Part shown: positions 9,199 through 21,922 of the stretch, piece after piece | Layout of the letters: every line of letters begins with the position of its first letter | Numbering within the stretch: position 1 is the stretch's first letter | DNA from: Bacillota bacterium | GTDB taxonomy: Bacteria > Bacillota > Clostridia > Peptostreptococcales > Anaerovoracaceae | Length of the DNA: 64,000 bases | Reading direction: 5' to 3' | Assembly: GCA_029006195.1 (NCBI GenBank) | Contig: JAQXGH010000001.1 | Coordinates: forward strand, 1-64,000 | Made by a program: the position numbers and the translations under genes | The notes under the pieces: generated by a model | What the model was told of the DNA's origin: nothing | What the model saw: the letters and a program-made list of their open reading frames with translations, nothing else | Database searches by the model: none

Positions 9199-11007
9199 AT
9201 GCTAGAATATGTAATGGGTAATGGCGCCATTGCGCTGGGAGCACTGGCTGCGGGAGTTAATCTCGTCAGCGGATACCCGGGCACACCATCATCAGAAATA
9301 ATCGAGACTATTTACAAGAGACCGCACGAAGGCGTGCATCTGGAATGGTCTGTAAACGAGAAGGCGGCACTTGAAGTGGCTGCCAGCGCGGCTTATGGCG
9401 GCGCCAGAACAATGGTTACCATGAAGCAGATGGGACTCAACGTTGCATCTGATGCGCTCATGTCGCTGGCTTATGTTGGCGTTAAGGGCGGTATGGTAGT
9501 TGTTGCTGCGGATGATCCCGGTCCGATTTCATCACAGACGGAGCAGGACACTAGAAGGTACGCGGATTTTTGCAGAATCCCGGTATTCGATCCTACATCA
9601 CCTGAGGAAGCTTATCAGATGATTCAGGATGCCTTTGAATACTCAGAAAAATACAGCACACCAGTACTTTTCAGACCTACAACAAGAGTGTGCCACGCAT
9701 ATGCGTCGATTGATGCTGCGGAGCACACAGAGCCTAAGAAATACGAGGGCTTCGTCAAAGACTCAAACAAGTGGGTAATTTTCCCTAAACTTTCAAATGC
9801 CAACCACGGTATGATCGAGAAGAGAAACGTAGAAATCGGTAAGGATTTCTCATCCTACGCTTTTAACGAAGTGCAGGGTGCAAAGGCAAAAGGCAAGGCA
9901 GTTATGGCTTCAGGAGTAAGCTACCAGTACGCTAAAGAAGCACTTAGAGACTGTCAGGATGTGAAGCTCATAAAGGTGGGAACTGCATATCCTCTGCCAG
10001 AGGATTTCCTGCTGGAAGCACTCAGCGGCGTGGATGAAATCATCTGCCTTGAAGAACTGAGTCCATATATCGAGGAGCAGCTCCTTAAGCTTGCTGGCAA
10101 GCACCACCTGAATATCAAGGTATCAGGCAAGCTTGACGGTAAGGTACCTGCAAACGGTGAGCTCAGTGCCAATATAGCTGCAGACGTTTTGGGAGAATTC
10201 CTCGGAATAGAAGCTGCTAAGGAAACTTTAGATTTATCAGATATGCCGGCTTTGCCGGTTAGACCGCCGGCACTCTGCGCTGGATGTCCACATAGAGCTG
10301 CTTTTTATGCAGTTAAAATCGCAATGAAGGGCAAGAGAAGCTACTTCTGCGGAGACATCGGCTGCTACACGCTGGGTAATGCGATGCCGCTTGATATGGT
10401 GGACACTTGCCTTTGCATGGGTGCTGGAATCACAATGGCCCAGGGCTTCCACTGGATCGACGAAGAGGGCACATCCTTCGCATTCGTGGGCGACTCAACA
10501 TTCTTCGCATCAGGCCTAACAGGCGTTGTGAACGCGGTATATAACGAAGCTAATATGATCCTCTGCGTGCTGGACAATTCAACAACAGCCATGACCGGTC
10601 ATCAGCCGCATCCGGGAACAGGTTTCAATATGCAGGGTAATTTCGTCGATAAGATTCAGATCGATAAGATCCTGGAAGGCATCGGTGTTAAGAAAATCCT
10701 GGCTGTGGATCCGCTGGATCTTGACGCATCAGTTAAGGCGGTTCAGGAATGCTGCGAAATTAAGGGTGTGAAGGCTATAATCTTCAAATCACCTTGCATT
10801 GCAATCGCGAAGTCAAAGAAGAAGGCAATAGTAAATGCTAGCTGCACAAACTGTAAGAAGTGCATCAGAGAGCTTGGCTGTCCTGCACTGATAACAGAAG
10901 ATGGTGCCGTTAAGATAGATAGGAACCTGTGTACAGGCTGCATGCTGTGCAGTCAGGTTTGTCCGTGCGGCGCGCTTACGCTGGAAGGAGGTGGCAGCAA
11001 TGAATAA
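9199..11007 (+). CDS. iorA: Indolepyruvate:ferredoxin oxidoreductase, alpha subunit
   Basis: This 602-aa subunit oxidatively decarboxylates aryl 2-oxo acids (indole-, phenyl- and p-hydroxyphenylpyruvate) to the arylacetyl-CoA and reduces ferredoxin. The N terminus has the pyrimidine-binding domain (SGYPGTPSSEI). The TPP-binding domain carries CAGCPHRA, GDIGCYTLG and the GDSTFF...DNSTTAMTGHQPHPG segment. Two [4Fe-4S] motifs close the protein (CTNCKKC...CTGCMLCSQVC). iorB overlaps its end by 8 bases. The operon links aromatic amino acid breakdown to ferredoxin reduction in an oxygen-sensitive cytosolic enzyme. Confidence 0.97.
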   Translation: MLEYVMGNGAIALGALAAGVNLVSGYPGTPSSEIIETIYKRPHEGVHLEWSVNEKAALEVAASAAYGGARTMVTMKQMGLNVASDALMSLAYVGVKGGMVVVAADDPGPISSQTEQDTRRYADFCRIPVFDPTSPEEAYQMIQDAFEYSEKYSTPVLFRPTTRVCHAYASIDAAEHTEPKKYEGFVKDSNKWVIFPKLSNANHGMIEKRNVEIGKDFSSYAFNEVQGAKAKGKAVMASGVSYQYAKEALRDCQDVKLIKVGTAYPLPEDFLLEALSGVDEIICLEELSPYIEEQLLKLAGKHHLNIKVSGKLDGKVPANGELSANIAADVLGEFLGIEAAKETLDLSDMPALPVRPPALCAGCPHRAAFYAVKIAMKGKRSYFCGDIGCYTLGNAMPLDMVDTCLCMGAGITMAQGFHWIDEEGTSFAFVGDSTFFASGLTGVVNAVYNEANMILCVLDNSTTAMTGHQPHPGTGFNMQGNFVDKIQIDKILEGIGVKKILAVDPLDLDASVKAVQECCEIKGVKAIIFKSPCIAIAKSKKKAIVNASCTNCKKCIRELGCPALITEDGAVKIDRNLCTGCMLCSQVCPCGALTLEGGGSNE

Positions 11008-11584
11008 AGACATTATGCTTTGCGGCGTTGGCGGCCAGGGAACTGTTCTGGCGTCAAAGATCATAGCAGCAGCTGCCATGAGCGAGGGAAGCACTGTTCA
11101 TTCCGCAGAAACGATCGGTATGGCGCAGCGTGGAGGCTCTGTAACAAGCCACGTTAGAATTGGCGATGCCTATTCACCGCTTATCCCTCTGGGAAGCGCT
11201 GAAATGATTCTGGCTTTCGAACCTGCTGAAGCGGTTAGAAATCTGGCTTACATGAAGAAGGATGGAATAGTGATCACAAATACCGTTCCTGCCAAGCCTG
11301 TAACCGAGTCACTGGCTCCATCAGGATACGAAGGCGCAGAAATGGTGGAATACCTTAAGAATAAATGTGAATGCATAGCTATCGATGCGAACGAAGTTTG
11401 TCAAAAGTTCGGATCGACAAAGTTCTTGAATATAATTATGCTTGGCATTGCTGCCGGAACTGGCAGACTGGGAATCGATACTGAAACTATCGCAGAAGAA
11501 ATCAAGAAAAGAGTTCCTGCCAAGTTTGTGGAGGCAAATATTGAAGCCTTTGCATTAGGCTTTGAAATAGGGGGAGAAAAATGA
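11000..11584 (+). CDS. iorB: Indolepyruvate:ferredoxin oxidoreductase, beta subunit
   Basis: This 194-aa gamma-type subunit of 2-oxoacid:ferredoxin oxidoreductases starts with the CGVGGQGTVLASKI motif and continues with ETIGMAQRGGSVTSHVR. AGGAGG at 10986-10991 lies 8 bases before the ATG at 11000, so an upstream in-frame GTG at 10991 is not the start. It overlaps iorA by 8 bases and the next gene (paaK) by 4, giving a tight three-gene operon. Confidence 0.96.
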   Translation: MNKDIMLCGVGGQGTVLASKIIAAAAMSEGSTVHSAETIGMAQRGGSVTSHVRIGDAYSPLIPLGSAEMILAFEPAEAVRNLAYMKKDGIVITNTVPAKPVTESLAPSGYEGAEMVEYLKNKCECIAIDANEVCQKFGSTKFLNIIMLGIAAGTGRLGIDTETIAEEIKKRVPAKFVEANIEAFALGFEIGGEK

Positions 11585-12822
11585 GACTGAATGAAACACA
11601 GCTGGCGCAGGTGGATGCGCAGATCAAGAGACTGATAAAGACTGACAGCTACTACGGTAAAATATATAGAGAGGCCGGCATTGAGGGCGTTACCTCCCAG
11701 GAAGATTTCGAAAAGCTGCCCTTCTCAAGTAAGGACGACCTGAGAAACGCTTATCCTCTGGGTATTCAGGCTGTTCCTGACGAAGAGGTGGTTAGAATCC
11801 ATTCATCATCAGGGACTACAGGTAAGCCTGTAATCATCCCTTATACTGCCAAGGACGTTTCAGATTGGGCTACTATGTTTGACAGATTCTATTAAACTGC
11901 AGGAATTACTAAGAATGATAGAATTCAGATCACTCCAGGATATGGACTTTGGACTGCAGGTATCGGTTTCCAGGCAGGCTGCGAGAAGCTTGGCGCGATG
12001 GCAATTCCTATGGGCCCTGGCAACACTGAAAAGCAGCTCCAGATGATGATGGATCTAGGTTCAACTGTTCTGACTGCAACTTCATCATATGCACTGATGC
12101 TGGCTGAAGAGATTAATAAGCGCGGCATTAGAGATAAGATCAAGCTTAAGAAGGGCGTGTTCGGTTCAGAAAGATGGAGCGATAAAATGCGCACATACAT
12201 CCAGAGAGAACTTGGCATCGAGCTTTATGATATTTACGGACTGACAGAAATCTACGGCCCTGGCATCGGCATCAACTGCACAGGCCAGCCAGGCATGCAC
12301 TACTGGGATGACTATATTTACATCGAAATCATCGACCCGAAGACAGGCAAGCAGGTTCCAGATGGCGAAGAAGGCGAAATCGTAATCACAACTCTGGTTA
12401 AGGAAGGCGCACCGCTCCTCAGATTCCGTACTCACGATATTTCAAGAATCATTCCTGAAGAATGTCCATGCGGAAGCAAATACCCTAGACTTGATATCAT
12501 CAAGGGTAGAAGTGACGATATGTTCAAGGTTCACGGCGTTAACATGTTCCCAAGCCAGGTTGAAGAAATCCTCGGCATGGTTGACGGCGTATCAAGTGAA
12601 TACAACATCAACATCGCGCACGATGACGAAAAGAACCGCGACATCATTATGGTTACAGCTGAAGCTGAAGGCCGCGTAAACTTCGAAAAGACAGCCGCTG
12701 AAATCAAGGGCCTCTTTAAGTCAAGAATGAGCGTAACTCCTAAGGTTACTATTGTACCTGTGGGAACTCTGCCAAGAACAGAAAAGAAGGCGAAGAGGAT
12801 TATTGACCACAGAGAATTGTAA
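11581..12822 (+). pseudogene. paaK: Phenylacetate-CoA ligase-like gene interrupted by a TAA codon
   Basis: The reading frame covers 414 codons and is similar throughout to aryl-acetate:CoA ligases of the adenylate-forming family: the AMP-binding loop SSSGTTGKP, then PGYGLWTAGIG, YGLTEIYGPG, and the C-terminal domain (GRSDDMFKVHGVNMFPSQVE). A TAA stands in frame at codon 105 (11893-11895) between DRFY and TAGITKND, and the frame resumes at once, so a single base change (for example from AAA or GAA) explains it. As read, translation gives 104 residues plus an untranslated remainder; an ATG at 11998 has no clear ribosome binding site. It overlaps iorB by 4 bases, as expected for a ligase that works on arylacetates. 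It may be a real nonsense mutation, a sequencing error or a rare recoding case. Confidence 0.85.
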
Positions 12823-14553: not shown

Positions 14554-15297
14554 ATGGAAAAAGATAAACTCGAACAGCTTTTGAATGACGTTGCAGAGGG
14601 GAAAGTCGGAACTGCGGAGGCTTTGCAGGTTTTGAAAACTCTCCCTTACGACGACATCGGAATTGCGAAAATCGATAAACATAGAGAGCTCAGAACGGGG
14701 CATTCAGAAGTTATCTTTTGTCTGAACAAGACGCCGAAACAGGTGGCTCAGATCGTGAAGAAGATGACCGAATACTCTAAACTGATTATTGGTACCAAGG
14801 CTTCACCCGCCCACTATGAAGCGGCGAGGGAAGTTGTGCCTGAGGCTAAGTACGATGAGGATGCGGGCATGATCATAGTTGGCGAAATGCCGGAGCCTAA
14901 GTCTGATAAGGTCATCGCTATAGTAACGGCTGGAACTGCGGACATTCCTGTTGCTAGGGAAGCTGCACTGACAGCGCAGTCATATGGCCACAAGACTAAG
15001 GAATACTATGATGTTGGTGTTGCGGGAATACACAGACTCTTTGACAAGCTTGACGAAATCAGAGAAGCTAATGTAATCATCGCGGTTGCAGGGATGGAAG
15101 GCGCTTTGGCATCGGTTCTTGGCGGTCTTGTTGACGTTCCGGTCATTGCTGTTCCTACAAGCACAGGGTACGGCAGCAGCCAGGGAGGAATGGCGGCGCT
15201 CCTCGCTATGCTCAACTCCTGCGCGCTGGGAGTATCAGTAATGAACATCGATAATGGGTTCGGTGCGGGATATTTCGCGTGCAAAATCAACAGATAA
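14554..15297 (+). CDS. larB: LarB, pincer nucleotide carboxylase/hydrolase
   Basis: LarB carboxylates the pyridinium ring of nicotinic acid adenine dinucleotide and hydrolyses its phosphoanhydride, the first step to the nickel-pincer nucleotide. The 247-aa length is normal. The C-terminal AIR-carboxylase-like domain is visible (VTAGTADIPVAREAALTA, VAGMEGALASVLGGL, VPTSTGYGSSQGG). It begins immediately after the larC1 stop, with AGGGAGG at 14538-14544. LarE, the sulfur-inserting enzyme, is not in the window. A LarA-type racemase, the expected user of the cofactor, is at 48679. Confidence 0.95.
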   Translation: MEKDKLEQLLNDVAEGKVGTAEALQVLKTLPYDDIGIAKIDKHRELRTGHSEVIFCLNKTPKQVAQIVKKMTEYSKLIIGTKASPAHYEAAREVVPEAKYDEDAGMIIVGEMPEPKSDKVIAIVTAGTADIPVAREAALTAQSYGHKTKEYYDVGVAGIHRLFDKLDEIREANVIIAVAGMEGALASVLGGLVDVPVIAVPTSTGYGSSQGGMAALLAMLNSCALGVSVMNIDNGFGAGYFACKINR

Positions 15298-15332
15298 GCT
15301 GCTTACAGCAGCGCTTTAGCAGCTAAAAGTCC

Positions 15333-15361
15333 TTGACATTCGAAGTTGCCAGTGCCAAAAT
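15333..15361 (+). promoter_or_regulatory. Promoter of the aromatic amino acid operon
   Basis: A perfect TTGACA (15333-15338) and CAAAAT (15356-15361) are 17 bp apart. The start would be near 15368, only a few bases before the leader peptide ribosome binding site. Confidence 0.7.
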
Positions 15362-15382
15362 AGAAGGGCGGGAGATTTTATT

Positions 15383-15490
15383 ATGAAGAACAAGGTTAAC
15401 AATAACACAGCAGTATATTTTGCCTTTAGATTCCAGAACTACTATTATTATGGTTCTGGTAATTGTGCTGCTGTAAACATTTTTGATTAA
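15383..15490 (+). CDS. Tyr/Phe-rich leader peptide of the aromatic operon
   Basis: A 35-codon ORF starts at ATG 15383, 8 bases after GGGAG (15370-15374), and ends with TAA at 15488-15490. It carries five Tyr (12, 20, 21, 22, 23) and four Phe (13, 15, 17, 34), including a run of four Tyr codons at 15440-15451. It lies between a TTGACA promoter and a terminator placed in front of pheA. This is the classic layout for ribosome-mediated attenuation: scarcity of charged Tyr- or Phe-tRNA would stall the ribosome inside the peptide. The peptide itself probably has no other role. It has no similarity to a protein family I know. Confidence 0.85.
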   Translation: MKNKVNNNTAVYFAFRFQNYYYYGSGNCAAVNIFD

Positions 15491-15531
15491 AATCATCCTA
15501 ATAATAAAGCTTTAATCAATCCGATGTTTGC
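15433..15531 (+). promoter_or_regulatory. Attenuator pairings: pause hairpin and antiterminator
   Basis: CCAGAAC (15433-15439) pairs with GTTCTGG (15453-15459), and the four Tyr codons lie in its loop. The antiterminator forms when GTAAACAT (15473-15480) pairs with ATGTTTGC (15524-15531) and GATT (15485-15488) with AATC (15518-15521). This captures the whole 5' arm of the terminator. The left arm overlaps the leader stop codon, so a ribosome that finishes the peptide would block it and let the terminator form. A further local hairpin, GATTAAA (15485-15491) with TTTAATC (15511-15517), also competes. Confidence 0.75.
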
Positions 15532-15553
15532 GTAGCAGGCATCGGATTTTTTT
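15518..15553 (+). terminator. Attenuator terminator before pheA
   Basis: The stem runs from 15518-15531 to 15535-15548: nine perfect outer pairs (AATCCGATG with CATCGGATT), then T-G and inner pairs to a GTA loop. Seven T follow at 15547-15553. pheA starts 23 bases later. Confidence 0.9.
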
Positions 15554-15575
15554 ATCATTTACTTTGGAGGAAAAA

Positions 15576-16556
15576 ATGGAAGACATAAAACGTAGAAGTG
15601 AAGAAATCGACAAAGAGATTCAAAAGCTCTATAAAGAGCGAATGAAACTTAGCAACATGACAATGGAGTTAGCAGACTTGGGAGACGTTAAGTCTATAGT
15701 AGAAACTGCACTGAAAAACACACCTGAAGTGTTCCCGGATTGTGCCCTTGTAGCATGTCAGGGAGTACCAGGTTCTTATTCACAGGCAGCAGCAAAGCAG
15801 CTCTTTAATCATCCTGATATCAATTTTTATAAAAACTTTGAAGATGTCTTTCTGGCAATTGAGCGTGGCGAATGCGAGTACGGCGTTCTGCCGATCGAAA
15901 ACAGTACAGCAGGCTCCGTAAACAAGATATATGACCTGCTTATCTATCACAGATGCTATATCGTTAGAAGCACTAGACTTAAGATCAACCATAATCTCAT
16001 GGCGCATGCAGGCAGCAAGCGTAACAAGATTCAGAGAATCTATTCACACGAACAGGCGTTAAACCAGTGTGAAGGCTATCTTAAGGGCTTCGATGATGTC
16101 GAAGTCCTCACATGCAGCAACACTGCTAAGGCAGCTAAAATCGCAGCTGAAGATGAAACTGGAACAACAGCAGCAATATGTTCATCAAGCTGTGCTGAAA
16201 TATATGATTTGGATATTCTCGATAGAGCGATTCAGGACAATAACAATAACTATACTAAATTTATTTGCATCAGTAAGACACCGCAGATTTTCCCTGGAGC
16301 AGATATCACAAGTATCATGGCCAAGATTTCACATAAGCCAGGAAGTCTGTTTGAAGTAATGAAAATATTCGCAGAGAAGGGATATAACCTGACAAAGCTT
16401 GAAAGTAGGCCTGTACCTGATACAGCGTTCGAATTCATGTTCTACTTCGACTTTGATGCACCTATAGTCCACGAAGGTTTCGTAGACGCAATTATGGAAA
16501 TGAGTCTTCACTGCGAAGACCTGGAATACCTGGGAAGTTACACAGAAAGGATTTAA
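15576..16556 (+). CDS. pheA: Prephenate dehydratase with a shortened chorismate-mutase-like N terminus
   Basis: This 326-aa cytosolic enzyme converts prephenate to phenylpyruvate. Residues 1-30 (MEDIKRRSEEIDKEIQ...ERMKL) resemble the first helix of an AroQ chorismate mutase, but the remaining ~60 residues of that domain are missing, so mutase activity is doubtful. The dehydratase domain starts near 57 (ACQGVPGSYSQAAA) and has GVLPIENSTAGSV. The usual TRF motif reads TKF here. A C-terminal ACT domain (HKPGSLFEVMKIF, KLESRP) suggests Phe feedback inhibition. The start is ATG 15576 after TTGGAGG (15565-15570). It is the first structural gene behind the attenuator. Confidence 0.93.
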   Translation: MEDIKRRSEEIDKEIQKLYKERMKLSNMTMELADLGDVKSIVETALKNTPEVFPDCALVACQGVPGSYSQAAAKQLFNHPDINFYKNFEDVFLAIERGECEYGVLPIENSTAGSVNKIYDLLIYHRCYIVRSTRLKINHNLMAHAGSKRNKIQRIYSHEQALNQCEGYLKGFDDVEVLTCSNTAKAAKIAAEDETGTTAAICSSSCAEIYDLDILDRAIQDNNNNYTKFICISKTPQIFPGADITSIMAKISHKPGSLFEVMKIFAEKGYNLTKLESRPVPDTAFEFMFYFDFDAPIVHEGFVDAIMEMSLHCEDLEYLGSYTERI

Positions 16557-16576: not shown

Positions 16577-17578
16577 ATGATTACAGTATTAAAAAGCACA
16601 GCAACAGCTGAACAGAAAGCTAAACTGATAAAGTGGTTTGAAGCACAGGGCGTTAAAGTTCACGTATCAGACGGTGAATACCAGACGATTCTGGGCCTTG
16701 TTGGTGATACAACTCTCATCGATGACGAGCTGGTCGACGCACTGGAAATCGTTGAAGCGGTTAAGAGAGTAAGCGAACCTTACAAGAGAGTAAACAGAAA
16801 GTTCCATCCAGAAGACACAGTTGTTGACGTTAACGGCGTTAAGATCGGCGGCGGTCACTTCGGTATCATCGCTGGACCTTGCTCAGTAGAATCAGAAGCA
16901 CAGATTCTGGAAGTAGCAAATAGTGTCAAGGCTGCAGGCGCTACAATGCTCAGAGGCGGAGCATTCAAGCCTAGAACATCACCTTACGATTTCCAGGGAA
17001 TGAAGTCAGAAGGTATCGAACTTCTGGAGAAGGCAAAGGCTGCAACAGGCATGCCTCTGGTAAGCGAAGTAATGAATGCTGATCACCTGCCGCTCTTTGA
17101 AAACGTTGACGTTATCCAGATCGGCGCTAGAAACATGCAGAACTTCGAACTGCTCAAGGCAGTAGGCAGAACTAATAAGACCGTACTCCTGAAGAGAGGC
17201 CTAGCTAACACTCTTAAGGAAATGCTCATGTCAGCTGAATACATCATGTCAGAAGGTAATGAAAACGTTATCCTCTGCGAAAGAGGCATTAGAACTTTCG
17301 AAACTTTCACTAGAAATACGCTGGACCTTTCAGCAATTCCTGCACTTAAAGAAAAGTCACATCTTCCAGTAGTTGTTGACCCAAGCCACGCTACAGGCAT
17401 CGCATCAATGGTTGAACCTATGGCAATGGCAGCAGCTGCAGCAGGCGCTGACGGTCTGATGATCGAAGTGCATAATGATCCTGCTAATGCGCTTTGCGAT
17501 GGTAAGCAGTCACTTACCCCAGCACAGTTCGCATCAGTTGTAGAAAAGGTAAATAAGATTAGAGAGGCAATCAAGTAA
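16577..17578 (+). CDS. aroF: 3-deoxy-7-phosphoheptulonate (DAHP) synthase, type I-beta
   Basis: This 333-aa enzyme condenses PEP and erythrose 4-phosphate, the first step of the shikimate pathway. An N-terminal ferredoxin-like domain of ~70 residues (TVLKSTATAEQKAKLIKWF) is the allosteric domain seen in Thermotoga-type DAHP synthase, which binds Tyr or Phe. The barrel follows, with IIAGPCSVES, LRGGAFKPRTSPYDFQG and VDPSHATG for metal and PEP binding. It has no fused chorismate mutase. Its stop overlaps the tyrA start by one base. Confidence 0.96.
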   Translation: MITVLKSTATAEQKAKLIKWFEAQGVKVHVSDGEYQTILGLVGDTTLIDDELVDALEIVEAVKRVSEPYKRVNRKFHPEDTVVDVNGVKIGGGHFGIIAGPCSVESEAQILEVANSVKAAGATMLRGGAFKPRTSPYDFQGMKSEGIELLEKAKAATGMPLVSEVMNADHLPLFENVDVIQIGARNMQNFELLKAVGRTNKTVLLKRGLANTLKEMLMSAEYIMSEGNENVILCERGIRTFETFTRNTLDLSAIPALKEKSHLPVVVDPSHATGIASMVEPMAMAAAAAGADGLMIEVHNDPANALCDGKQSLTPAQFASVVEKVNKIREAIK

Positions 17579-18423
17579 TGAGAACTATTGGTGTAGCAGG
17601 AATGGGCCTCATCGGAGGCTCATTCATTAAGGCATATAACGAAGCCAAAGACTGGAGGGTTTACGGTTTTGATATCGATAAGAAGATAGTACAGCTGGCT
17701 GAACTGTCAGAGGATATTGCAGGTGAGCTGACTAAAGAGAACATCGGCGAATGTGATCTGGTCCTCATAGCTCTTTATCCTGAAGCGACTGTAAACTACC
17801 TGAGAGATATGGCTCCATTCATTAAAAAAGATGCCATCGTAATCGACTGCTGCGGCGTTAAGGGAGATGTGTGCAAGCCTTGCTTTGAAATTGCAAAGGA
17901 CTACGAATTCACATACCTTGGCGGACACCCAATGGCAGGTAGACACGTATCAGGTTACAAGTACTCTACAGAAAAGCTCTATAGAGGCGCACCTATGGTT
18001 ATAGTACCTGAACATTTCGATGATATCGATCTGCTGTCATATGTTAAGGAACTTTTGGCACCAGCACAGTTTGGCTCCATCAGTGTTACAACTGCAGATA
18101 ATCATGATAAGGTTATAGCTTTTACATCTCAGCTGGCACATGTTGTTTCAAACGCATACATGAAGAGCCCGACTGCGCTGGAACACAGAGGTTTCTCAGC
18201 GGGGAGCTATAGAGATATGACAAGAGTTGCATGGCTTAACGAAAACATGTGGACTGAGCTGTTTATGGATAACAGAGAACATCTCTTATTTGAACTTGAT
18301 CATATTATTGGAAGTTTAACTCAGTATAGAGATGCCCTGGAAAGCAAAGATTATGATACAATGAAGGAGTTACTTAAGGAAGGTAGAATCCTCAAGGAAC
18401 AGGTAGACGGATTCATTAAATAA
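17578..18423 (+). CDS. tyrA: Prephenate dehydrogenase
   Basis: This 281-aa NAD(P)-dependent enzyme oxidatively decarboxylates prephenate to 4-hydroxyphenylpyruvate for Tyr. The Rossmann motif GVAGMGLIGGSF is at the N terminus. The catalytic-region GGHPMAGRHVSGY and TSQLAHVVSNA are present. There is no C-terminal ACT domain, so feedback would have to act through AroF or attenuation. The ATG overlaps the last base of the aroF stop codon, which implies translational coupling. Confidence 0.96.
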   Translation: MRTIGVAGMGLIGGSFIKAYNEAKDWRVYGFDIDKKIVQLAELSEDIAGELTKENIGECDLVLIALYPEATVNYLRDMAPFIKKDAIVIDCCGVKGDVCKPCFEIAKDYEFTYLGGHPMAGRHVSGYKYSTEKLYRGAPMVIVPEHFDDIDLLSYVKELLAPAQFGSISVTTADNHDKVIAFTSQLAHVVSNAYMKSPTALEHRGFSAGSYRDMTRVAWLNENMWTELFMDNREHLLFELDHIIGSLTQYRDALESKDYDTMKELLKEGRILKEQVDGFIK

Positions 18424-18442: not shown

Positions 18443-19624
18443 ATGAAGTGTAGAATTATCAAACCGGCAGATAGCGGAGTTGTGCAGGCGCCACCGTCAA
18501 AGTCAGCGGCGCACAGAATGCTTATAGCAGCCGGATTATCAGGGATAGATATTGAGAACTTCTGTAAGGATGTTTCTCAGGATATGGATGCGACTAGAGA
18601 CTGCATCAAGGGAATCTTAAGTGACGCCAAGGTTAAGCAGGTTTCATGCGGCGAGAGCGGTTCTACTCTCAGATTCATGCTTCCTATAGCAGGCGCACTG
18701 GGTGCAAACACTCAGTTCAGAGCTGCAGGCAGACTGCCGAATAGACCTCTGGGCGCTCTTAGAGAAGCCCTTGAGAGCCACGGTTGCACGATGTCAAAGG
18801 AAGGCAACAATCCGATCTGCATCAGCGGACAGCTTAAGAGCGGCGAATACACACTGCCAGGTGACATCTCATCACAGTATGTAACTGGTCTTCTCATGGC
18901 GCTGCCGCTTGTTAAGAAGGATAGCCACATTACTATCGTGGGCAAGCTTCAGTCAAAGCCTTACGTTGACCTGACAATGGACACACTTACAAAGGCGGGC
19001 ATCAAGATCGTAGAGAAGCCGTATGGATATATGGTACCTGGCGGACAGAAATATAACCTGCCTGTTAAGTACGTAGAAAGCATCGAAGGCGACTGGTCAA
19101 ACGGCGCATTCTGGCTGGTAATGAAGGCAATCAGAAGCATGGGCATCGAATGCGAAGGTCTGGACCTGGCATCAGCTCAGGGCGATAAGGCGATCGTTGA
19201 TATCATCTCCGGAGCAAGCCAGAAGGGCGAGCTCATCGTAGATGCATCAGACATTCCGGACCTCATTCCGGTTGTTTCAGTTCTGGCAAGTGCACGTCGC
19301 AAAGGCCTCATAACCAGAGTAATAAACGGCGAACGTTTAAGATATAAGGAAAGCGATAGACTGGAAGCTGTTGCCAGAGTGATGAACGGCCTCGGCGCAG
19401 ATATCGAGGAGCTTGAAGACGGCCTTATCATTAAGGGCGTTGAGAAGCTCAAGGGCGGAGAAGCAGATGGCTGCAATGACCACAGAATCGTTATGATGGC
19501 AGCAACAGCAGCATGTATCTCAGAAAACCCTATTACTATAGACGGATACGAAGCAGTAGCCAAATCATATCCGAACTTCTTTGACGAATATCAGAAACTC
19601 GGAGGTGAAATCGAATGGCTATAG
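18443..19624 (+). CDS. aroA: 3-phosphoshikimate 1-carboxyvinyltransferase (EPSP synthase)
   Basis: This 393-aa enzyme transfers the enolpyruvyl group of PEP to shikimate 3-phosphate. Recognisable pieces are PPSKSAAHRMLIAAGL near the N terminus, GESGSTLRFMLPIAG, and RYKESDRLEAVARVMNGLGA, plus NDHRIVMMAA near the end. The protein is slightly shorter than the ~430 residues usual for the family, mainly from compact loops. A ribosome binding site (GAAGGG) lies in the 19-base gap after tyrA. Its end overlaps aroC by 10 bases. Confidence 0.97.
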   Translation: MKCRIIKPADSGVVQAPPSKSAAHRMLIAAGLSGIDIENFCKDVSQDMDATRDCIKGILSDAKVKQVSCGESGSTLRFMLPIAGALGANTQFRAAGRLPNRPLGALREALESHGCTMSKEGNNPICISGQLKSGEYTLPGDISSQYVTGLLMALPLVKKDSHITIVGKLQSKPYVDLTMDTLTKAGIKIVEKPYGYMVPGGQKYNLPVKYVESIEGDWSNGAFWLVMKAIRSMGIECEGLDLASAQGDKAIVDIISGASQKGELIVDASDIPDLIPVVSVLASARRKGLITRVINGERLRYKESDRLEAVARVMNGLGADIEELEDGLIIKGVEKLKGGEADGCNDHRIVMMAATAACISENPITIDGYEAVAKSYPNFFDEYQKLGGEIEWL

Positions 19625-20682
19625 GATTCGGTCAGAATATCAGAGTAAGCATATACGGCGCTTCACATGCACCTCAGATTGGGGTAACAGTTGAAGGACT
19701 GCCTAAGGGCGCACCAGTTGACGTAGAGAAGCTCCAGGCTTTTCTCACTAGACGTGCCCCAGGCAGAAACGAGTGGTCAACTCCTCGTAAGGAAGCTGAC
19801 GCACCTGAATTCATTTCAGGACTCGAAGATGGAATCATAACTGGGGAGAAGCTTGAGGCCATCATCAGAAATACGAATACAAGACCGCAGGATTACGGTA
19901 ATGTGATTACAGTTCCTAGACCTGCACATGCTGATTATCCTTCATGGGTTAAGCAGGGAAAAATCGAAACAGGCGGAGGCAGATGGTCAGCTAGAATGAC
20001 TGCACCTCTCTGCATTGCAGGCGGTATCGTACTGCAGCTTCTGGAAGAGATGGGAATTAATATCAAGGCGCATATTAAAAGCATTGGAGGGATAGAGGAT
20101 GTAGCTTTCTCAGGCGGAGAAGTTTCTGAAGAAGTTGACACTGAATTCCCGGTTATCGATAAGGAACAGGGCGAGAAGATGAAGGCCCTGATCAGAGAAA
20201 CTAAGAAAGCTGGAGATTCTGTAGGGGGAATCATCGAGTGCGAGATCCGCGGCATGAAGCCAGGCATTGGCGATGCGCTGTTTGGCGGACTTGAATCCAG
20301 CATTTCACAGAGCATTTTCGCGATTCCGGCAGTTAAGGGCATCGAGTTTGGCTGTGGATTTAAGGTGGCTGAAATGAAGGGCTCACAAAATAACGATCCG
20401 TTCATCATTAAGGACGGCCGCGTGGAAACTGTTACTAACAATCACGGCGGCATCCTGGGCGGTATGTCATCAGGTATGCCCATCATTTTCAGAGCTGCTC
20501 TTAAGCCAACACCTTCCATCGGTATGGAGCAGCAGAGCGTTAACCTGGCTACAATGGAGCCGGCTACACTGGCAGTTAAGGGCAGACACGACCCCTGCAT
20601 CGTACCACGTGCGGTGCCGGTAGTTGAAGCGGCTGCAGCAATTGCAATTTATGATGTTATTTTAGGAGAAATCAATGGGTAA
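19615..20682 (+). CDS. aroC: Chorismate synthase
   Basis: This 355-aa FMN-dependent lyase removes phosphate from EPSP to form chorismate. It has the family features GASHAPQIGVTVEGLP, RRAPGRNEWSTPRKEAD, GGGRWSARMTA, and the C-terminal GRHDPCIVPRAVPVVEA. A reduced flavin must be supplied. The start overlaps the end of aroA and its end overlaps the aroE/aroK gene by 8 bases, so this stretch is tightly coupled. Confidence 0.97.
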   Translation: MAIGFGQNIRVSIYGASHAPQIGVTVEGLPKGAPVDVEKLQAFLTRRAPGRNEWSTPRKEADAPEFISGLEDGIITGEKLEAIIRNTNTRPQDYGNVITVPRPAHADYPSWVKQGKIETGGGRWSARMTAPLCIAGGIVLQLLEEMGINIKAHIKSIGGIEDVAFSGGEVSEEVDTEFPVIDKEQGEKMKALIRETKKAGDSVGGIIECEIRGMKPGIGDALFGGLESSISQSIFAIPAVKGIEFGCGFKVAEMKGSQNNDPFIIKDGRVETVTNNHGGILGGMSSGMPIIFRAALKPTPSIGMEQQSVNLATMEPATLAVKGRHDPCIVPRAVPVVEAAAAIAIYDVILGEING

Positions 20683-21922
20683 TGATAATAATAAGGGCCT
20701 TTACGGACTTCTTGGCAGAAAGCTGGGACACAGCTTCTCACCACAGATCCATAAGGCTTTTGGCGGATATGATTATGAACTTTTCGAAAGAGAACCTGAA
20801 GAAGTCGGCGATTTCATCAAGAACGGCGGTTTTAAGGCTATCAATGTAACGATTCCATATAAGAGAGCGGTAATGGAGTTCTGCGACGAGCTGTCAGAAG
20901 TTGCTATCGCAGCAAACAGCGTTAACACAGTTATCCGCATGGATGACGGCAGAATCATCGGCGACAACACTGATTATTACGGCTTCAGATACATGCTGGA
21001 ATCAGAAGGCCTCTCACCTGCCGGACAGAAGACACTGGTTCTTGGCAGCGGCGGCGTTTCAGGAACTGTTATCAAGGCGCTTCAGGATATGGGAGCTTCT
21101 GAAGTCATCACTATCTCACGTTCAGGCGAAAACAACTACGATAATTTGGATAAGCATTACGATGCAGGCTTCATCGTAAACACAACTCCGGTAGGAATGT
21201 ATCCCGATAACGAAGGCTGCGTAATCGACGTGAAGAATTTCCCTTCATGCAAAGGCTGCGCAGACCTGGTTTACAATCCTCTGAGAACTCGTTTCGTAGT
21301 AGAGTCACGCGAAGCTGGTATCCCGGCTGTAAGCGGACTTTCGATGCTGGTTGCACAGGCTGCAAAGGCATGCAATCTCTTCATAGGAATTGATGTGCCA
21401 GATGAAGCTATCAGAGAGCAGGTTGCGATTCTGGAACGTGGCCACGAAAACATCGTACTGATCGGAATGCCTGGCTGCGGCAAGAGCTCAGTAGCTGCTG
21501 AGCTTGCCAAGATCACTGGTAAGCCGCTGGTGGATACTGATACCTTAATCAAAGAAATGACAGGCCGCACACCTTCAGAAATCATAAACGAAGACGGCGA
21601 ACCTGCATTTAGAGATATCGAAACAAAGGCGCTGGCCGAAGCTCTTCATACAGGCGGTAAGATCATCGCATCAGGCGGCGGTATCGTAGAAAGAGACGAA
21701 AACCGTCTGCTTATGATCAGAAACAGCCGCGTTCTCTACATTAAGCGTGATCTGGAAAACCTGCCATCAAATGACAGACCGGTTTCACAGAGAGATGGCG
21801 TTAAGAAAATTTACGAAAGACGCCACGGTAAGTATGAGGGCTGGAGCGATTTCACTGTTGATAACAATGGCGAATTGAATTCGACAGTTGAAGAGGCAGC
21901 TTGGGTGCTTGGGTATAAATAA
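20675..21922 (+). CDS. aroE-aroK: Fused shikimate dehydrogenase-shikimate kinase
   Basis: This 415-aa protein joins two enzymes. Residues ~1-255 are AroE: LLGRKLGHSFSPQIHKAF and AINVTIPYKRAVMEF bind shikimate, and LVLGSGGVSGTVIKAL is the NADPH site. Residues ~260-415 are AroK: the P-loop GMPGCGKSS, then DTDTLIKEMTG, GEPAFRDIETKAL and IASGGGIVERDENR. The fusion channels 3-dehydroshikimate to shikimate 3-phosphate in one polypeptide. It is the last gene of the operon. aroB and aroD/aroQ, needed for the two earlier steps, are not in the window. Confidence 0.96.
   Translation: MGNDNNKGLYGLLGRKLGHSFSPQIHKAFGGYDYELFEREPEEVGDFIKNGGFKAINVTIPYKRAVMEFCDELSEVAIAANSVNTVIRMDDGRIIGDNTDYYGFRYMLESEGLSPAGQKTLVLGSGGVSGTVIKALQDMGASEVITISRSGENNYDNLDKHYDAGFIVNTTPVGMYPDNEGCVIDVKNFPSCKGCADLVYNPLRTRFVVESREAGIPAVSGLSMLVAQAAKACNLFIGIDVPDEAIREQVAILERGHENIVLIGMPGCGKSSVAAELAKITGKPLVDTDTLIKEMTGRTPSEIINEDGEPAFRDIETKALAEALHTGGKIIASGGGIVERDENRLLMIRNSRVLYIKRDLENLPSNDRPVSQRDGVKKIYERRHGKYEGWSDFTVDNNGELNSTVEEAAWVLGYK

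Follow-up and report, generated by a model that had tools for sequence, protein, structure and literature searches.

In Bacillota, genes of aromatic amino acid synthesis are usually controlled by T-boxes or by TRAP, and a TRAP-controlled leader carries a series of GAG/UAG repeats. The nearest precedent for the leader analyzed here is AroR of Corynebacterium glutamicum, a Phe-Tyr-Phe leader peptide encoded before aroF and acting by ribosome-mediated attenuation (PMC11802643, PMC4046766, citing Neshat et al. 2014); Phe limitation raises expression, and the system is reported to be unresponsive to Tyr. Another precedent is the pheL-pheA attenuator of Escherichia coli, in which a leader peptide sensing Phe-tRNA precedes pheA (PMC11802643). 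A further example is the uORFC-13-1 motif, a candidate Phe uORF that immediately precedes a terminator in the region 5' of aroF and is reported from 24 sequences, in Acholeplasma and in environmental sequences of unknown origin only (PMC8632094). Within Bacillota, His leader peptides have been described in bacilli and relatives of Clostridioides difficile (PMC2965389, PMC9413887) and a Leu-rich attenuator before ilv of Staphylococcus aureus (PMC5794164). A comparative attenuation survey from 2010 (Lopatovskaya and others), known here through its citation in PMC4833913, may also bear on aromatic leaders of Clostridia.

The locus described here belongs to a 64-kb stretch of DNA, called the window below. 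Like AroR, it combines an aromatic leader peptide with a DAHP synthase operon; it differs in that AroR is actinobacterial, is credited with three aromatic residues, and is reported not to respond to Tyr. Since AroR is said to answer Phe and not Tyr, a Tyr response of the window leader is not to be assumed. The E. coli attenuator involves Phe and pheA only, whereas the window leader combines Tyr and Phe codons with a six-gene operon. The description of uORFC-13-1 gives at least one Phe codon and makes no mention of Tyr codons, whereas the window leader has both. The His and Leu leaders of Bacillota use the same classical attenuation where relatives use a T-box, but for other amino acids and operons.

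The first-pass annotation of the window regarded a dual Tyr/Phe leader over such an operon as undescribed in this group. In the literature searched, which included few subscription papers, nothing was found on Tyr/Phe leaders of aromatic operons in Clostridia, and to this extent the statement holds; its broader sense is narrowed by the known Phe-Tyr-Phe leader of Corynebacterium, Phe uORF of Acholeplasma and His and Leu leaders of Bacillota. The mechanism is old, and the novelty lies in where it is found, how widely it occurs and how leader content matches operon content. The case is wholly computed, and for one of that kind the evidence is strong: the leader parts, how they are conserved and covary, two folds that exclude each other, and the correspondence of codons to operon.

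Leader region, operon and predicted folds

The features of the region are as follows (positions in the window).

15333–15361, + strand: promoter-like site, TTGACA, 17 nt, CAAAAT, with TG before the −10; 10 of 12 matches
15365–15374, + strand: Shine-Dalgarno-like AGGGCGGGAG, ending 8 nt before the leader ATG
15383–15490, + strand: putative leader peptide ORF, ATG start, 35 codons plus stop, encoding MKNKVNNNTAVYFAFRFQNYYYYGSGNCAAVNIFD
15407–15474, + strand: predicted anti-antiterminator (1:2) helix, 15407–15416 with 15465–15474
15433–15459, + strand: pause hairpin, CCAGAAC (15433–15439) with GTTCTGG (15453–15459), the four Tyr codons (15440–15451) in its loop
15464–15491, + strand: antiterminator 5' arm (region 2), extending across the leader stop codon
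15488–15490, + strand: leader stop codon
15511–15539, + strand: antiterminator 3' arm (region 3), covering most of the terminator 5' arm, the loop and the start of the 3' arm
15518–15553, + strand: intrinsic terminator with U-tract, stem 15518–15548, −18.9 kcal/mol
15576–16556, + strand: pheA, prephenate dehydratase with an ACT-like region and no chorismate mutase match
16577–17578, + strand: aroF, DAHP synthase with a ferredoxin-like N-terminal domain
17578–18423, + strand: tyrA, prephenate dehydrogenase
18443–19624, + strand: aroA, EPSP synthase
19615–20682, + strand: aroC, chorismate synthase
20675–21922, + strand: aroE-aroK fusion, shikimate dehydrogenase plus shikimate kinase

Intergenic gaps from pheA to aroEK do not exceed 20 nt. 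Judged by its gene matches, the operon 3' of the leader makes Tyr and Phe, whose codons cluster in the leader. No CM_2 (chorismate mutase) Pfam match was found in the window genome, which is 85% complete. A few kb 5' of the operon lie iorA/iorB-like genes (9199–11584), presumably encoding indolepyruvate oxidoreductase, and 3' of these a paaK-like frame (11563–12822), which we take to be a phenylacetate-CoA ligase and which is broken by an in-frame TAA at 11893–11895.

The elements that the first-pass annotation had listed were recovered: the 35-codon ORF with five Tyr (codons 12 and 20–23) and four Phe (13, 15, 17 and 34), its ribosome binding site, the 7-bp hairpin holding the four Tyr codons in its loop, the strong terminator, and the overlap of the antiterminator arm with the leader stop codon. 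The TTGACA promoter is likewise present; as four such sites were found in the 1.4 kb scanned vs 2.5 expected, this match is weak when taken alone. A composition-based leader-plus-terminator scan of both strands of the 64 kb, comprising 28 terminators and 15 residue groups, returned this ORF as its sole match and no further leader peptides in the window.

Folding of 15367–15560 gave a z-score of −5.7, with none of 200 shuffles equally good. The duplex of region 2 with 15518–15540 reached −20.1 kcal/mol vs −11.6 for shuffled sequence, and in this calculation the antiterminator is a long interrupted helix (15464–15481 with 15523–15539). Both antiterminator helices proposed at first pass exist, but the structure is larger than had been drawn: in the folded subsequence an outer helix, TTGATTAAA at 15483–15491 with 15511–15519, competes with and replaces the GATT/AATC pair (15485–15488 with 15518–15521). 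In the fold model of the naked leader RNA, the 1:2 helix forms alongside the terminator; this helix has fold support only, and its location varies among relatives. When a ribosome positioned at Tyr20 was masked, the antiterminator fold reached −27.7 kcal/mol vs −22.9 with the terminator enforced, and with the ribosome at Phe17 the antiterminator was ahead by only 1.5 kcal/mol. A ribosome at the stop codon left the terminator in place, an outcome obtained partly by construction because region 2 is then masked.

Very probably, transcription of the whole pheA-aroF-tyrA-aroA-aroC-aroEK operon is governed here by classical ribosome-mediated attenuation, with the charging of tRNA-Tyr and tRNA-Phe as its signal. 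With both amino acids ample, a ribosome translating the leader ORF, as it presumably is translated, would complete the peptide and rest at the stop codon (15488–15490), covering region 2 and letting the terminator form. With Tyr or Phe short, it would halt among codons 12–23 and keep region 1 from region 2, so that region 2 could pair with region 3, the terminator would not form and RNA polymerase would read on. A stall at codons 20–23 would leave region 1 behind the ribosome, and we infer that the 1:2 helix is still blocked in that case. If the leader were not translated at all, region 1 would pair with region 2 and the terminator would form. The model predicts that ribosomes stall at the Tyr and Phe codons and that read-through increases when either amino acid is limiting. 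The observation made at first pass is confirmed, and comparison with relatives gives good computational support to its interpretation as an attenuator.

Conservation and covariation within the genus

To find the same leader in the genus, 49 genomes were searched using three leaders as queries. The search gave eight clear matches (E 6e-8 or better), including the queries themselves, and a ninth leader (G016) was found by reading upstream of its pheA; an HMM of the nine recovers all of them, as it must (E 3.2e-10 or better). A homologous leader is present in 9 of the 49 genomes. It stands directly before a short pheA in seven of the nine, while in G069 a pheA start follows the leader at the contig end. 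In G018 a transposase-like ORF (L038:1181–1594), which we assume to resemble an IS200/IS605 transposase, separates the attenuator from pheA, and a group II intron match (L038:32–97) lies upstream of the leader. No convincing homologue outside the genus was obtained with the HMM in the 349 genomes of the family, 49 of them from the genus (the best other match being partial, with E 5.7e-4), nor in the other 79 loci of the best 80 of 570 GTDB loci described below; the wider class of leaders was found by composition.

Alignment of the leader in relatives, suggested at first pass as a check, showed that relatives retain the ORF, its Tyr and Phe codons and the helices, the last with compensatory substitutions. 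The consensus of the nine peptides is TAAYFGFxFQGYYFSAGxLCC. At seven codon positions, chosen for having Tyr or Phe in at least six of the nine sequences, Tyr or Phe occupies 61 of the 62 cells, with TTT, TTC, TAT and TAC interchanging; positions 10, 16 and 18 drift, the last being Q, P, S or W. Among the nine, the four-Tyr run is unique to the window, and in the other eight leaders the cluster ends one codon earlier, with Phe or Tyr. Given the consensus TAAYFGFxFQGYYF and this window-specific run, Phe codons count at least as much as Tyr codons.

Covariation is strong for the terminator, clear for the pause hairpin and weaker for the antiterminator. In the nine-row alignment, 99.1% of terminator cells are paired and 6 of 12 pairs have changed on both sides, with a covariation score of 0.400 vs 0.205 for shuffled alignments (reached by 0 of 500). 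For the pause hairpin, 90.7% of cells are paired, 4 of 6 pairs have changed on both sides, and the score is 0.394 vs 0.262 (reached by 1 of 500). In the antiterminator core, 83.3% of cells are paired and two of eight pairs have changed on both sides (a count reached by 84 of 500 shuffles), and its score of 0.281 vs 0.210 was reached by 12 of 500, the best slid version scoring 0.128; these column counts are lowered because G011 and G016 are out of register. One antiterminator pair, alignment columns 110–180, occurs as UA, CG, GC and UG and involves a column of the terminator loop. Antiterminator duplexes of the nine leaders range from −19.2 to −24.9 kcal/mol, with z-scores from −0.95 to −3.97 (mean −2.9), the weakest being that of G016 at only −0.95. 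Computed energies and covariation indicate that the antiterminator and terminator folds are mutually exclusive. When a stalled ribosome was masked to 15 nt past the start of the second aromatic cluster, in an equilibrium model, the antiterminator formed in six of the nine leaders, and three (G011, G069 and G018) failed to flip and kept the terminator.

Each of the nine leaders is preceded by TTGAC(A/T), 16–17 nt and a −10, with 10–11 of 12 matches, and each promoter score was equalled by 1–18 of 300 base shuffles. The −10 of G069 is just 6 nt away from the chosen ATG, so either the start or the promoter is wrong there. These sites bear on an explanation in which the ORF has its effect through polarity or translational coupling, the hairpin being an ordinary terminator that ends an upstream transcript. 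A terminator of the upstream gene would be expected within 15297–15576; yet a promoter-like site stands upstream of the hairpin in the window as in all nine leaders, and the antiterminator both excludes the hairpin and covaries. We consider an ordinary terminator very unlikely.

Leader and operon content in the genus and beyond

A second arrangement emerged when the window aroF was used as query, which found the gene in 38 of the 49 genus genomes. Thirty loci were taken; nine are pheA-first with the leader, one (G013) is pheA-first with masked sequence, and the other 20 (L202–L221) have no pheA before aroF. Where aroF is followed by tyrA (L203–L215), a Tyr/Phe leader is present in 13 of 13 loci, e.g., MLFRAFAAAYYYFYFTFFRSKVNFAATR, accompanied by a terminator and by an antiterminator whose z is −1.8 to −5.7. 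Where aroF is followed by aroA or aroC without tyrA (L202, L216–L221), it was found in 0 of 7, the best ORF having 4 Tyr/Phe in 12 codons.

To extend the analysis beyond the genus, GTDB contigs were scanned with an alignment of seven pheA proteins, and the best 80 loci of 570 relatives were taken, mostly from metagenome genomes labelled Oscillospiraceae, Lachnospiraceae or Clostridia. A frequent gene order in these 80 is aroF-tyrA-aroA-aroC-pheA-aroE-aroK. Operons in which 450 nt or more precede the first gene recognised were treated as evaluable (61 of the best 80), and an ORF with at least 5 Tyr/Phe in 12 codons as a Tyr/Phe-dense leader. Such an ORF is found in 48 of the 61, with at least 6 Tyr/Phe in 47, vs a background of 89 (at least 5) and 21 (at least 6) among 2231 stretches of comparable length drawn at random from these loci, with coding DNA allowed; one of the 48 (L112) is the genus member G016. 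By first gene, a leader is present in 39 of 41 aroF-first, 9 of 16 pheA-first, 0 of 2 aroA-first and 0 of 2 tyrA-first operons of this best-80 set. No Tyr/Phe-dense leader was found in 13 of the 61 evaluable operons, including the aroF-first L155 and L184. A stricter scan of the same best 80 of 570 loci, in which a terminator and a Shine-Dalgarno sequence were also required, gave 29 Tyr/Phe matches, one of them (L135) away from the operon front; other residue groups gave Leu/Ile 6, Lys/Asn 1, Gly/Ala 5, Ser/Thr 4, His/Gln 1 and Trp 0.

Codon content of the leaders follows operon content. Among the best 80 of 570 loci, two or more Tyr codons occur in all 41 leaders of loci with tyrA (mean 4.0 Tyr and 4.6 Phe) and in 0 of 7 leaders before pheA where the available DNA shows neither aroF nor tyrA (mean 0.6 Tyr and 6.0 Phe). 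The association of Tyr codons with tyrA across the 48 leaders of this set has a Fisher p of 1.4e-8, a value overstated because the loci are related. Among the seven pheA-alone leaders, which are Phe-only or nearly so (L136, L138, L143, L158, L171, L173 and L179), are two groups of three that resemble one another.

A terminator is present in 46 of the 48 leaders from the best 80 of 570 loci, with a median antiterminator z of −2.8; against shuffles, the antiterminator of these 46 is better by more than 1 sd in 42 and by more than 2 sd in 32, and z lies above 0 in one. In the 27 of 46 that were aligned by anchor, three or four Watson-Crick types are seen at most of the antiterminator pairs; these pairs had been chosen by energy.

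We hypothesize that Phe/Tyr operons in a large part of Clostridia are probably controlled as a rule by leader-peptide attenuation, with codons fitted to products: a mixed Tyr and Phe leader would serve as an either-or gate for a shikimate-to-Phe/Tyr operon, pheA-alone leaders would respond only to Phe, and an aroF operon that lacks tyrA would have no such leader. If true, ribosome-based sensing that governs entire aromatic operons in many uncultured Clostridia would change how the regulation of aromatic synthesis is annotated in them. The leaders also offer a natural series for testing codon content against operon content.

Stall sequences for small molecules are known from TnaC and Erm leaders, and the peptide could in principle be of this kind rather than a sensor of charged tRNA. 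Conservation of the genus peptide beyond its aromatic residues (TAAYFGFxFQGYYFSAGxLCC) speaks for such a role, but part of this conservation falls in paired RNA, the TGCTGCTG Cys codons lying in region 2, and the peptides from the best 80 of 570 GTDB loci vary widely save for their Tyr/Phe density. A small-molecule stall is most improbable on this evidence.

T-boxes and other RNA families

An Rfam search of the leader (15250–15650) returned nothing at gathering score, and matches with E up to 10 were at chance level only, with no T-box (RF00230) and no leader family among them. No T-box reached gathering score in the window or in 20 pheA loci of relatives, whose flanks of ~1.5 kb miss the operon front if another gene precedes pheA. 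Nor did one in 20 additional loci of the genus, made up of 13 that begin with aroF and 7 of the 9 that begin with pheA, or in the 8 of the 80 GTDB loci that were searched. The window genome has three T-box matches just under the cut-off, all on other contigs.

These three matches, together with the usual place of T-boxes in Bacillota, are what favors a tRNA- or ligand-sensing RNA (a T-box or an unknown riboswitch) in which the ORF would be incidental. We regard such a sensor as highly improbable: against it stand the empty Rfam result for the window leader at gathering score, the selection acting on aromatic codons in one frame, and the way in which both leader presence and Tyr-codon content track operon content.

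The number of T-box matches per genome is 2–6 in the genus (19 genomes, G000–G018) vs 7–26 in other families of the order (12 genomes, G037–G048); those of the genus are of smaller size and frequently incomplete. In G047, from another family of the order, a Phe-rich leader, MKYLNANTTSQFNTFFFSWGFIFSAGFLTCKSKS, followed by a terminator is located upstream of pheA (L027, 1246–1350 of the reversed locus).
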